From contig CABZHO010000004.1 of NCBI GenBank assembly GCA_902525595.1, forward strand, positions 1 to 57,659: a stretch of 57,659 nt of DNA, written 5' to 3'. The notes under the pieces are model-generated. The model saw nothing but the letters and a program-made list of their open reading frames with translations, made no database searches and was not told the origin of the DNA. Positions 305 through 13,368 of this stretch are shown here, in pieces (the stretch's first letter is position 1; each line of letters begins with the position of its first letter). Source of the DNA: an uncultured Pelagibacteraceae bacterium (GTDB lineage Bacteria > Pseudomonadota > Alphaproteobacteria > Pelagibacterales > AG-422-B15). The position numbers were made by a program, and so were the translations under genes.

Positions 305-1165
305 CTAATTTTTCAATTTTTGAGAAACAAGTTCTAGTTGATCTAGACTCTTGTATTCAATCTTCATATAACCACCTTTTTTTCCACGGTGATTGATTAA
401 AACATTTAAACCAAGTTTTTCAGATATTTTTTCTTCTAAATCAATTGTATCTGGATCCTTTAATTTTATCTTTTGCACAGTACTTTTTCTACTTTTAGCA
501 AGGCTTTCAGCCTCTCTTACACTGAGATTTTCGTTTATTATTTTTTCAGCAAGTTGTTCTGGGAAAGCACTATTCATTATGGCTCTCGCATGGCCCGAAG
601 AAATTTTTCCCTCAGAAATCATATCCTGAATTGATTGAGGCAAAGTTAATAGTCTTAATATATTAGCAATATGGCTTCTGCTCTTTCCAACAATTTCAGA
701 GAGAACTTCTTGGGTATGACCATGATTGTCAATTAATCTTTTATATCCAGCTGCTTCTTCAATAGGTGACAAGTCTGAACGTTGAATGTTTTCAATAATT
801 GCAATTTCAAGCGCTTCAACATCGTCTAAATTTTTGATAACTGCAGGGATTTTATGTAGCTGTGCTATTTGAGCAGCTCTCCATCTTCTTTCACCAGCAA
901 TGATCTCGTATGAATCTTCATCTGTCTTTGAAGGTCGAACTAATATTGGTTGAACTAAGCCTTTTGATTTTATTGACTCGGCCAATTCATTAATACTATT
1001 TTTATCAAACAACCTTCTTGGTTGAGAAGGACTGGGTTTTAATGCAGCAATTGAAATTGTAACTTCAGAACTTTTTACTGTGTTATCAGTTGAATTAATA
1101 TTGGTATCGCCCATTAGAGATGATAGTCCTCGACCTAGTCCTTTTTTTGGAATGTTAGTTTTCAT
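305..1165 (-). CDS. parB: Chromosome partitioning protein ParB
   Basis: This 286-residue ParB/Spo0J protein is a CTP-dependent DNA clamp that loads at parS and spreads to build the segregation complex. The N-terminal ParA-contact region has GLGRGLSSL (9-17). The CTP-binding fold has GERRWRAA (91-98) and ENIQR (125-129). A helix-turn-helix lies around 148-172, and a C-terminal dimerisation domain follows. Its ATG overlaps the parA stop by one base (TAATG), which suggests translational coupling. A perfect parS lies about 1.4 kb upstream in rsmG, so the cis site and its binding protein share one operon. Confidence 0.97.
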   Translation of the reverse strand: MKTNIPKKGLGRGLSSLMGDTNINSTDNTVKSSEVTISIAALKPSPSQPRRLFDKNSINELAESIKSKGLVQPILVRPSKTDEDSYEIIAGERRWRAAQIAQLHKIPAVIKNLDDVEALEIAIIENIQRSDLSPIEEAAGYKRLIDNHGHTQEVLSEIVGKSRSHIANILRLLTLPQSIQDMISEGKISSGHARAIMNSAFPEQLAEKIINENLSVREAESLAKSRKSTVQKIKLKDPDTIDLEEKISEKLGLNVLINHRGKKGGYMKIEYKSLDQLELVSQKLKN

Positions 1166-1950
1166 TAAGCGGCCTCTTTTTCTTTATTTTGTTTTATTAT
1201 TTCGTTAGCTAAATTTAAATAAGCCTGACTACCTGATGCATTTTGATCATAAATTAATGCAGGCATACCAAATGATGGTGCTTCAGATACTCTTACATTT
1301 CTTGGAATAATTGTTTGGTAAACTTGTTCTTTCAGATGAGACCTAACATCATTTGCAACTTGAGAAGATAATTTATTTCTTCCATCAAACATTGTTAGAA
1401 CTATTCCATCAATAGAAAGACTCGGATTTAAGTTTTGTTTAACCCTATCTATTGTTTTAATTAATTGACTTAAACCTTCGAGAGCAAAAAATTCACACTG
1501 CAAAGGAACAATAATAGAATTAGCTGCAGTCATGGCCATGACAGTTAATAAACTCAAAGCAGGAGGACAATCTAAAAAAATATAATTAAAATTATTAATG
1601 TCTTCACTCTCTAATATTTTTTTTAAAGTGAAAGCTCTATCACTAACATCTGCTAATTCAGGTTCGATGCCTGAGAGATCAACAGTTGATGGGATAATAA
1701 ATAAATTATCAATAGATGTATTTTTTATGGATTGATCAATTGAAGTATTTCCTGACAGTACATCATAAATAGAGTTTTGACGATTTTCATAGTCAATACC
1801 TAAGCCTGTACTTGCATTGCCTTGCGGATCGAGATCAATAAGTAATACTTTTTCCCCAGAAGCAGCTAGGGCTGTGGATAAGTTTATTGCTGTAGTGGTT
1901 TTACCTACTCCTCCTTTCTGATTCGATATAGCGATTATTTTATTTTTCAT
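1165..1950 (-). CDS. parA: Chromosome partitioning ATPase ParA (Soj)
   Basis: This 261-residue Walker-type ATPase forms the nucleoid-bound gradient that moves ParB-parS complexes to the cell pole. The deviant P-loop KGGVGKTT is at residues 12-19, and an aspartate-bearing LIDLDPQGN segment is at about 37-45. The length is typical of chromosomal Soj/ParA, without the N-terminal HTH of plasmid ParA. The start ATG overlaps the rsmG stop by one base, and its own stop overlaps the parB start by one base, so the three genes read as one tightly coupled unit. Confidence 0.97.
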   Translation of the reverse strand: MKNKIIAISNQKGGVGKTTTAINLSTALAASGEKVLLIDLDPQGNASTGLGIDYENRQNSIYDVLSGNTSIDQSIKNTSIDNLFIIPSTVDLSGIEPELADVSDRAFTLKKILESEDINNFNYIFLDCPPALSLLTVMAMTAANSIIVPLQCEFFALEGLSQLIKTIDRVKQNLNPSLSIDGIVLTMFDGRNKLSSQVANDVRSHLKEQVYQTIIPRNVRVSEAPSFGMPALIYDQNASGSQAYLNLANEIIKQNKEKEAA

Positions 1951-10492: not shown

Positions 10493-11497
10493 TTACATTA
10501 CTGAAATATGTTCGTTCAACAGTGTATTAATAAAATTGATTTGCTCATCTGAGTCATTTAGACATGGTATATAATGAAATTTATTACCACCTGCATTTAA
10601 AAAAATTTCTTTATTTTCTTCATCGATTTCTTCGATTGTTTCTAGACAATCAACACTAAAAGCCGGAGCAATTACCATGATGTCCTTTATGCCTTCAGAA
10701 GGAAGTCGTTCCATAGTTTCACTTGTGTAAGGCTTCAGCCACTCTGCTGGTCCAAAACGAGATTGAAAAGTTGTAATGTATTCTTCTTCTTTTAAGTTTA
10801 ATTTTTCAGCAACTAGGCGTGTAGTTTTTTGACAAAAGCATTGGTAGGGATCGCCCAATGTGAAATTTCTCTTAGGTATGCCGTGGTACGTAAAAATTAT
10901 TTTTTGTGGCATGTGATTAGAGATTTTATTTTTTATTGTTGCTACCAAGCCCGATATATAACCTTCATGATCGTGGTAGCTGTTTATGAAATTAAGAGCA
11001 GGAACCCATCTCCACTTTGAAAGAACTCGGGTTACCTCGTCAAAAACACTACCCGTTGTTGTTCCCGAATACTGAGGAAACAAGGGGAGAATTATAAGAC
11101 TTTGACAATTCTTATCCTTAAGTGAAAGAAGTGCTTTTTCCATGTTGGGCTTCCCGTAGCGCATCGCTAGTTCAATTTCTATATTTTCTGTAACGGTTCT
11201 CTTTAGCTTTTCTAATATTCTCTCAGAGTAAACAAGAAGTGGTGATCCCTTGTCTGTCCATACTGACTTATAAAGCTTTGCTGATTTTGCTGGACGAAAA
11301 GTAAGGATTATTCCGTTTAAAATGAACCACCAAATAAACTTTGGAATTTCAATGACCCTGCCGTCTGATAAAAATTCTTTTAAAAAACTTCGTACGTCGC
11401 GAGTTTGATAACTTTCTGGTGTCCCCAAGTTACAAATAAGAACTCCAATTTTTTTTCGTCTTCCGTGTTCATAGTCTTGTGTACCAACAAATTTCAT
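10493..11497 (-). CDS. hemH: Ferrochelatase
   Basis: This 334-residue enzyme inserts Fe2+ into protoporphyrin IX, the last step of heme b synthesis. The metal-binding His205 lies in TYHGIPKRN, followed by GDPYQCFCQ. The catalytic acidic segment CLETIEE is at 284-290. The PQYSGTTTGS porphyrin-contact segment is present at about 141-150. The length is normal. There is no obvious C-terminal membrane helix or 2Fe-2S cysteine cluster. It sits between hemE (9-bp gap) and hemG (6-bp gap) in a leftward operon that starts at oriC. Confidence 0.96.
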   Translation of the reverse strand: MKFVGTQDYEHGRRKKIGVLICNLGTPESYQTRDVRSFLKEFLSDGRVIEIPKFIWWFILNGIILTFRPAKSAKLYKSVWTDKGSPLLVYSERILEKLKRTVTENIEIELAMRYGKPNMEKALLSLKDKNCQSLIILPLFPQYSGTTTGSVFDEVTRVLSKWRWVPALNFINSYHDHEGYISGLVATIKNKISNHMPQKIIFTYHGIPKRNFTLGDPYQCFCQKTTRLVAEKLNLKEEEYITTFQSRFGPAEWLKPYTSETMERLPSEGIKDIMVIAPAFSVDCLETIEEIDEENKEIFLNAGGNKFHYIPCLNDSDEQINFINTLLNEHISVM

Positions 11498-11506
11498 TTT
11501 TTTCTT

Positions 11507-12490
11507 TTAGTTGTTTCTTACCTTTTGTACAAGTCTCTCTACATTATTTATTGGCGTCCCAGGAAGAACGCCATGACCCAAATTAAAAATATGCGGGTAA
11601 TCACGAAAGGCAAGTAATATTTCTTCAAGACCTCTATCCATTTCATCGCCTCCATTTAAAAGAAGTTTTGGGTGTAGGTTTCCTTGATATGAGATATTTG
11701 GATTTAATAAGTTAAGTTGTCGTAAATTAAAATTATAATCTAAACAAATGCAATCGAGCTGGTTAATAAATGAGTAATTTTTATAACCGCTTATATTGGC
11801 ATTTCTAGGGAATCCAATTATTGGTATATCGGATTTGTTTTTGATTTTTTTTACTATTTTCAGGGTTGGATTTACAACCCATTTCTCAAAGAGATAATCG
11901 TTAAGATCACCAGCGGCAGATTCAAATATTTGAAACACATCTATGCCGGCGTTTACTTGTTGCATTGCGTAATTAGAAATTATACCCGTGAGTTCATCGA
12001 TGTGATCGTCTATTCTTTTTTTGTTTCGATTAATTAGGTCTTCGTTTATCTGTGACCTCTCTTCTTTATCAAATAAACAATATAATAATGTTGTCCAGGG
12101 CCCGCCCGCAAAGCCTATCAAAGGGGTGCTCGATATCTTTTTTATGTTTTCTATACCCTTTGTAACCGGGTCCAGCTTGTGCGACTTAAAATTAAATTTA
12201 TCGTTGAATTTTACCTGAGGGCCAATACCTTCTCTAAAACTGACATCACATCCAGATGCATAAGGTATCATAAGTATATCTGAAAACACTATGCAGGCGT
12301 CAAGTCCGTACCTTTTTACTGGTTGAAGTGAGATTTCAGCTATCACGTCAGGATTAAGAAACATTTCCATTAAGTCTGTGTGTCTTTGTCTAATATTAAT
12401 GTACTCTGGTAAATGTCTTCCCGCTTGTCTCATTAACCAAATGGGAGTTTTTGTTTTGTTGCCTTTTAGTGTTTCTATAAGAATACTCAT
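11507..12490 (-). CDS. hemE: Uroporphyrinogen decarboxylase
   Basis: This 327-residue enzyme converts uroporphyrinogen III to coproporphyrinogen III. The N-terminal signature RQAGRHLPEY is at 21-30, with the catalytic Asp region downstream (VFSDILMIPYA) and the C-terminal NLGHGVLPGTP. It is the first gene left of the predicted origin and is transcribed away from it, as in Caulobacter and other alphaproteobacteria, where hemE marks one edge of oriC. Its promoter must lie inside the origin region, so initiation and hemE transcription may affect each other. Confidence 0.97.
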   Translation of the reverse strand: MSILIETLKGNKTKTPIWLMRQAGRHLPEYINIRQRHTDLMEMFLNPDVIAEISLQPVKRYGLDACIVFSDILMIPYASGCDVSFREGIGPQVKFNDKFNFKSHKLDPVTKGIENIKKISSTPLIGFAGGPWTTLLYCLFDKEERSQINEDLINRNKKRIDDHIDELTGIISNYAMQQVNAGIDVFQIFESAAGDLNDYLFEKWVVNPTLKIVKKIKNKSDIPIIGFPRNANISGYKNYSFINQLDCICLDYNFNLRQLNLLNPNISYQGNLHPKLLLNGGDEMDRGLEEILLAFRDYPHIFNLGHGVLPGTPINNVERLVQKVRNN

Positions 12491-12501
12491 ATAATATATA
12501 T
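12488..12501. repeat. Left copy of a 14-bp direct repeat flanking oriC
   Basis: CATATAATATATAT occurs here and again at 12721-12734. The left copy includes the complement of the hemE start codon. The two copies bracket most of the origin region and may be unwinding elements or recurring AT-rich sequence. Confidence 0.5.
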
Positions 12502-12534
12502 ATAAGGTAGTATTAGTTTATGTACCTGTGATGA

Positions 12535-12543
12535 TGTGTATAT
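12535..12543 (-). promoter_or_regulatory. Candidate weak DnaA box near hemE
   Basis: The minus strand reads ATATACACA, one mismatch from the consensus at the first base. This AT-rich sequence could occur by chance. Confidence 0.3.
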
Positions 12544-12612
12544 ATAAAAACCTCTTATTTGCCCACAAATCAATACACACATATAACAAGGATATTTAGA
12601 TTGTTCCTTATA

Positions 12613-12621
12613 TTGTTCACA
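12613..12621 (+). promoter_or_regulatory. Candidate weak DnaA box
   Basis: The bases TTGTTCACA differ from the TTWTNCACA consensus at one position. They lie 22 bp before the consensus box, a spacing of about three helical turns from start to start (31 bp). Confidence 0.5.
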
Positions 12622-12643
12622 GGGTAGAATTATAGTTTAATCA

Positions 12644-12652
12644 TTATCCACA
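12644..12652 (+). promoter_or_regulatory. Consensus DnaA box
   Basis: The bases TTATCCACA match the high-affinity DnaA box exactly. They overlap an inverted repeat with arms ATCCAC and GTGGAT (12646-12659), so a second, poorer half-site faces it on the other strand. Confidence 0.8.
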
Positions 12653-12720
12653 GGTGGATGAAAAGCTAGAAAATATAGGATAAAAAGACCAAAATATTGT
12701 AAATGTTTAAATACAGTAAA

Positions 12721-12734
12721 CATATAATATATAT
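12721..12734. repeat. Right copy of a 14-bp direct repeat flanking oriC
   Basis: This is an exact copy of the repeat at 12488-12501. It is followed immediately by a CCACA motif that completes a near-consensus DnaA box. Confidence 0.5.
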
Positions 12735-12739
12735 CCACA
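12731..12739 (+). promoter_or_regulatory. Candidate weak DnaA box near maf
   Basis: The bases ATATCCACA differ from the consensus only at the first base. They directly follow the right-hand AT-rich repeat. Confidence 0.45.
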
Positions 12740-12765
12740 CTAATTACCCAGTTTGTTAATAGCTT

Positions 12766-13368
12766 ATGAACACACAAATAATACTAGCCTCTAAAAGCCA
12801 AACACGCTCAAGACTGTTAAAAAATGCAAAAATAAAATTCAAAACAGTTGATCATGGCGTTGATGAGGATGAAATTAAATTATCCATGTTTGAAAGGTCG
12901 CCTGAAGAAATTGTTACAAAGCTGGCCGAGATGAAGGCTTTGAAGGCATCCATATCGAATGAAGGTTTGGTTATAGGCTCGGACCAAGGACTAGACCTAA
13001 ACGGAAAACTGGTCAATAAAGCAAGAAACCTTGATGAAGCTTATGAACAACTAAAAAGCATGAGTGGCAAAGAGCATACACTTATAACAACCACAGTCGT
13101 AGCCAAAGAAAACAACATTATTTGGAAATATGTAGATAGAGGCAAAATGAAAATGAGAACCCTTAATGAAAAAACTATCAAAGAGTACTTGGAGAGTGTT
13201 GATGAAAAAATACTTGGCTTGGTTGGCGTTTATGCAATTGAAGAAGAAGGCATTAAATTATTCGAGCATGTAGGAAGCGATTTATTCTCAATACAAGGAT
13301 TATCAATGATGCCATTAACTCAATTTTTATGGGACAACGGATTGTTGTTTAAAAATAATGGTCATTGA
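12766..13368 (+). CDS. maf: Maf-family nucleotide pyrophosphatase
   Basis: This 200-residue Maf/YhdE-type protein hydrolyses non-canonical or modified nucleoside triphosphates such as dTTP/UTP or m7GTP. The N-terminal ILASKSQTRSRLL is the family phosphate-binding signature, and GSDQGL is at about 72-77. The subfamily (YhdE dTTPase or YceF m7GTPase) cannot be fixed by eye. It is the first rightward gene from oriC, overlaps aroE by 11 bp, and starts the maf-aroE-coaE-dnaQ operon. Confidence 0.92.
   Translation: MNTQIILASKSQTRSRLLKNAKIKFKTVDHGVDEDEIKLSMFERSPEEIVTKLAEMKALKASISNEGLVIGSDQGLDLNGKLVNKARNLDEAYEQLKSMSGKEHTLITTTVVAKENNIIWKYVDRGKMKMRTLNEKTIKEYLESVDEKILGLVGVYAIEEEGIKLFEHVGSDLFSIQGLSMMPLTQFLWDNGLLFKNNGH

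Follow-up and report, generated by a model that had tools for sequence, protein, structure and literature searches.

A predicted DnaA-dependent chromosomal origin in the hemE-maf intergenic region of a SAR11 (Pelagibacterales) genome

The analysed stretch of DNA (57,659 nt; hereafter the window) is the entire contig C4 of a 1.0-Mb genome assembly that is 72% complete and consists of 40 contigs. The nearest named relatives are SAR11 single-cell genomes of the AG-333/AG-337 type ('Pelagibacteraceae'). Genes were assigned to families by profile match, except aroE, coaE, and dnaQ, which were named from reading the open reading frames, and are arranged in the order parB-parA-rsmG(parS)-mnmG-mnmE...rho-(flavodoxin)-hemH-hemE-gap-maf-aroE-coaE-dnaQ. 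The gap between hemE and maf had been put forward as the chromosomal origin of replication in an initial annotation that relied on DnaA box matches and the neighbouring hemE. Its flanking genes run outward, as had been described, and it is the longest gap of the window, provided that TTG starts are permitted. The main features of the locus are as follows.

305-1165, minus strand: parB (ParB_N, E=1.2e-35)
1165-1950, minus strand: parA (AAA_31, E=1.9e-64)
2517-2532, unstranded: perfect parS TGTTTCACGTGAAACA within rsmG, sole exact copy in the 1.0-Mb assembly
11507-12490, minus strand: hemE, uroporphyrinogen decarboxylase, left flank (PF01208, E=1.4e-72)
12491-12765, unstranded: predicted oriC, the whole hemE-maf intergenic region (275 nt)
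12766-13368, plus strand: maf, right flank (PF02545, E=1.1e-37)

In the window genome, parS and parAB lie ~10 kb from the hemE-maf gap, and of 13 further SAR11 genomes, 11 have parS at 7-17 kb from hemE. The maf gene occupies the flank that is held by ppsR/RP001 in other alphaproteobacteria. The ppsR gene (DUF299/COG1806, PF03618) is present in the sister family; in the window's genus, 40 genomes were searched and none yielded it. The gap yielded no Rfam match and no tRNA, and an RNA element and a tRNA were both rejected as explanations. The elements recognized in and at the edge of the gap are listed below, with their conservation among 36 sequences of the genus.

12476-12505, unstranded: AT-rich edge, predicted unwinding element, overlapping the hemE start (least stable 30-mer)
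12508-12516, plus strand: trio-like TAG TAT TAG (TAGTATTAG), predicted DnaA-binding triplets in single-stranded DNA
12517-12526, unstranded: spacer TTTATGTACC from the trios to the first TGTG core
12527-12535, minus strand: trio-proximal weak DnaA box ATCATCACA (CACA core only, 36/36)
12535-12543, minus strand: DnaA box ATATACACA (identical in 36/36)
12559-12567, plus strand: DnaA-box-like TTGCCCACA (identical in 35/36)
12613-12621, plus strand: degenerate DnaA box TTGTTCACA (at most 2 mismatches to TTATNCACA in 34/36)
12644-12652, plus strand: exact DnaA box TTATCCACA (CACA core in 12/36, AACA in 21 more)
12653-12661, minus strand: opposed degenerate DnaA box TCATCCACC, right arm of an inverted repeat (at most 2 mismatches to TTATNCACA in 35/36)
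12731-12739, plus strand: DnaA box ATATCCACA (CACA core in 35/36)

The exact TTATCCACA that had been reported at 12644-12652 is present, as are the three boxes described as one-mismatch sites at 12613, 12731, and 12535. Each of the three has one mismatch to TTATNCACA; against the strict TTATCCACA, those at 12613 and 12535 have two. The reported inverted repeat ATCCAC-AG-GTGGAT (12646-12659) also exists, but in relatives the palindrome is not exact, and what persists is two degenerate boxes in opposite orientation, 12644(+)/12653(-). In agreement with the initial annotation, the gap contains neither TTAA-N7-TTAA at up to one mismatch, the CtrA pattern, nor GANTC; it also has no exact IHF consensus and a few one-mismatch matches to it. 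Three elements had been overlooked, namely TTGCCCACA at 12559-12567, the trio-like TAGTATTAG, and the perfect parS at 2517-2532. The AT-rich edge at 12476-12505 has the lowest stability of the 57,630 30-mers in the window, as calculated with nearest-neighbour energies.

Box counts are near chance by themselves. Across the whole window, 15 sites match TTATCCACA with at most one mismatch compared with 19.5 expected from shuffles. The 275-nt gap holds four TTWTNCACA-like sites against a mean of 0.86, and 1.6% of window positions reach the same count in an equal-sized stretch, so boxes alone are insufficient and box counting was rejected as proof of an origin. Exact TTATCCACA occurs only four times in the 1.0-Mb assembly, against 15 occurrences of its reversed control, a hint that high-affinity DnaA boxes are avoided in this genome.

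Conservation was assessed on 45 loci of the genus, some of which are one genome fetched twice; together with G065 they make up 36 distinct sequences. Across congeners, the gap measures 271-277 nt, mostly 273-275 nt, with one outlier of 262 nt (L045), while identity to the window in the same loci drops to ~51-57% for hemE and 56-72% for maf. At 4-fold degenerate sites of hemE and maf, 21 deep congeners agree with the window at 30% of positions and are thus saturated; mean identity of the gap to these congeners is 0.56 vs 0.304 at the 4-fold sites. Conservation is concentrated near hemE. Every position of 12535-12550 shows at least 95% agreement among the 21 deep congeners, and the 15-mers 12535-12549 and 12536-12550 average an identity of 1.00, followed by 12516-12530 (0.92) and 12559-12573 (0.86). 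Within the AT-rich edge, 12498-12504 is at least 95% identical to L001 across the same set. The block GTTTATGTNCCTGTGN4TGTGTATATA (12516-12544) is single-copy and adjoins hemE in 39 of 43 genus genomes; all four genomes without it (G007, G031, G032, G034) also yielded no hemE, which makes assembly gaps likely.

The best-conserved sites are therefore 12535(-) and 12559(+), the latter unlisted in the initial annotation. In its CACA core, the exact box at 12644 is conserved more poorly than any other of the set save the 12653 arm, and this led us to reject the exact TTATCCACA as the key site. The trio-proximal box at 12527 is never within two mismatches of TTATNCACA among the 36 sequences. The pattern of three TAN triplets followed by N10-TGTG has a single occurrence in the window; the trios are degenerate in the deep half of the genus, which has TTG TAG TTG instead of TAG TAT TAG.

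The other SAR11 family (17 genomes) has the order hemE-gap-ppsR-maf with a gap of 238-292 nt, a hemE-gap-ppsR order that equals the arrangement in Caulobacter and Rickettsia (PMC1914354). When these gaps are aligned by their first box, T-A-N triplets recur in fixed phase at -16, -13, -10, and -7, followed by a 4-nt spacer and TGT[G/T]NATAA; since the anchor box was selected as the best match, its columns are partly conserved by construction, which does not hold for the triplet columns. The strict form of three TAN triplets, N4, and a box was found in 9 of 19 gaps and had no match in 1.2 Mb of sampled background. The window's trios TAG TAT TAG lie at -19, -16, and -13, in the phase and at the TGTG-core distance of the sister family. 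As judged by sequence comparison, the box/trio module of the sister-family gaps is homologous to that of the window.

The module resembles the basal unwinding system (BUS) of DnaA-boxes and DnaA-trios known from Bacillus subtilis and others (PMC6669920, PMC8287927), for which the criterion is a box with at most 2 mismatches at 0-16 nt from at least three NAN trios. Shared with that system are a box and, past a short spacer, TAN triplets, which lie on the strand that runs 3'->5' from the box outward; these features are clear in the sister SAR11 family. The window differs in having only three trios, which stand beside a weak box (three mismatches) at 10 nt, and the closest good box is 18 nt away from them, beyond the published limit of 16 nt. 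By the published BUS limits, the window is thus borderline.

In genus g2 (G036, G039; L127-L130), the homologous module lies in the arrangement rho-gap-ppsR-maf (350 nt), between ppsR and rho, with hemE elsewhere, ~600 kb from parS. The initial annotation had taken the hemE edge as the established location of alphaproteobacterial origins; the gap does adjoin hemE, but this edge is not diagnostic, as the g2 module has parted from it. The proposed search for a GC skew minimum was carried out on relatives, the window's own genome being in 40 contigs; from each chromosome or contig, 20 blocks of 20 kb were sampled. In G065, from the same genus, the minimum falls within 396-462 kb and the module is at 423.7 kb. 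With p-values that come from shuffling the 20 sampled blocks and serve only as a guide, the skew score at hemE of G048 is 1.032 vs a best score of 1.047 (p ~0.008), G037 fits best at 195-250 kb, while its hemE, at 67 kb, ranks among the top 5% of scores (p ~0.016), and the best fit in G036 of genus g2 is at 132-190 kb with the module at ~141.5 kb (p ~0.0001). The minimum is thus near the gap or its counterpart in G065, G048, and G036, and the fit is loose in G037. A contig of G014 is consistent, with a flat bottom at 180-290 kb that does not fix a point. Local skew inside the window was noisy and discarded as uninformative.

In G036, hemE is located at 718 kb, on the terminus side. Because the g2 module stays at the skew minimum while hemE went to the terminus, the module and not hemE marks the origin. 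This bears on whether the conserved blocks could instead be a divergent promoter or regulatory region of hemE and maf with no origin. Divergent genes on both sides, promoter-like AT-rich motifs, and the position of the strongest blocks closest to hemE would fit such a region, but the homologous module of g2 is flanked by ppsR and rho, ~600 kb from hemE, and the skew minimum tracks the module, the blocks consist of TGTG/CACA and triplet repeats rather than -35/-10 pairs, and the parS and skew data are left unexplained. We regard a purely regulatory role as very improbable.

It is equally improbable that replication starts in the parAB-hemE neighbourhood but outside the gap, for example by parAB/mnmG. 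Skew resolves only tens of kb, the minimum in G014 is broad, and a second exact TTATCCACA is found at 1873-1881 near the parA start, all of which would be compatible with a nearby site; however, the combination of boxes, trios, and AT-rich edge is located in the gap and its homologues, the 1873 box is part of a coding region, and only short gaps occur near parAB. Several independent lines of evidence, namely conservation far above the neutral rate, linkage to parS/parAB, the AT-rich edge, the skew of relatives, and the sister-family module, support the initial prediction, and this comparative evidence is stronger than the box matches and hemE edge on which it had been based. From these sequence comparisons, the hemE-maf gap is very probably the DnaA-dependent chromosomal oriC of this SAR11 (Pelagibacterales) genome.

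At the predicted oriC, DnaA would bind the box cluster 12535(-), 12559(+), 12613(+), 12644(+)/12653(-), and 12731(+). The tandem TGTG sites at 12527/12535 may then guide DnaA, presumably leftward, onto the TAG TAT TAG of the plus strand (12508-12516), which would open the AT-rich edge beside hemE at about 12476-12505, where the helicase could be loaded. After initiation, forks would exit both ways along the outward-pointing genes, and ParB at parS, 10 kb off, would segregate the freshly replicated origin.

Sites of this kind are well known; the arrangement in the window is lineage-specific. The E. coli oriC has more boxes and binds IHF and Fis. Its R1/DUE part is similar in polarity, TTATTAG...GC spacer...TGTGGATAA (L125), with the TGTG end toward the melting region, but the proximal box of the window is far weaker than R1. 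Origins of the hemE type are known from Caulobacter crescentus (Cori; hemE - origin - COG1806/CC0001) and from Rickettsia and Wolbachia (PMC1914354, PMC4285127). The window shares with these the position beside hemE, AT richness, a cluster of mostly degenerate boxes, and a gap of a few hundred bp, and its conserved CCCACA core resembles the six-base W-boxes (TCCCCA) of Caulobacter. Unlike Cori, it lacks the COG1806/ppsR flank, with maf instead, and has neither a CtrA site nor an exact IHF consensus, and its gap of 275 nt is shorter than the >400 nt of Cori and other hemE origins. Origins beside hemE without CtrA sites are reported from other alphaproteobacteria (PMC1914354).

The two SAR11 families differ in the prevailing box form. 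Gaps of the window's genus are enriched in TNNNCACA (4.0 per gap vs 0.75 expected) and also in CCCACA, and sister-family gaps (L046-L062) are strongly enriched in TTATNAACA, in which a C of the DnaA box is replaced by A (2.41 vs 0.14), with a first-order Markov model as control and relatives that are not independent. At a homologous box position of the sister family, the fourth base is G or T at 10:8, and this mix at one position speaks for AACA and CACA boxes being interchangeable. There is a single DnaA gene, in which R399, D433, H434, T435, and T436 are identical to E. coli; the DNA-touching positions of DnaA are those of the E. coli domain IV structure. Flanking residues differ between the families (GGRDHTT vs xNRDHTT). 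Altered DnaA specificity residues were rejected as the cause of the sister-family AACA boxes, with no change at the contact positions compared. In Mycoplasma hominis, TTATTAACA is annotated as a DnaA box (PMC2751442), which makes AT pressure a plain alternative to altered specificity; this annotated form corresponds to the TTATNAACA enriched in sister-family SAR11 gaps, and the window's genus differs in using a CACA core. A further reading, which we put forward tentatively and hold to be rather unlikely, is that SAR11 families switched box dialect (CACA in the window's genus, TTATNAACA in the sister family) while the DnaA contact positions compared stayed the same, and that the window's genus swapped most trios for an invariant lineage-specific GTTTATGTNCC-TGTG-N4-TGTGTATATA, a new form of origin core.

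SAR11 are among the most abundant marine cell groups, and estimating growth from the read depth of metagenomes requires a known replication start. We found no publication of a SAR11 origin sequence in the PMC literature, a coverage that leaves out most subscription journals. The predicted origin is given here with base-level coordinates, and its conserved elements are told apart from conspicuous, less conserved ones. With hemE on the terminus side in one SAR11 genus and the origin module still beside ppsR, hemE is an unsafe landmark, and the comparison with relatives illustrates the ways in which such origins change, up to separation from the gene that they normally adjoin.

A separate observation concerns the ferrochelatase beside hemE (10493-11497), which has 26% identity to that of G065 from the same genus (L126, 11752-12693). 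Most of its neighbours are 50-96% identical between the window and G065, and the ferrochelatase is possibly a replaced gene.
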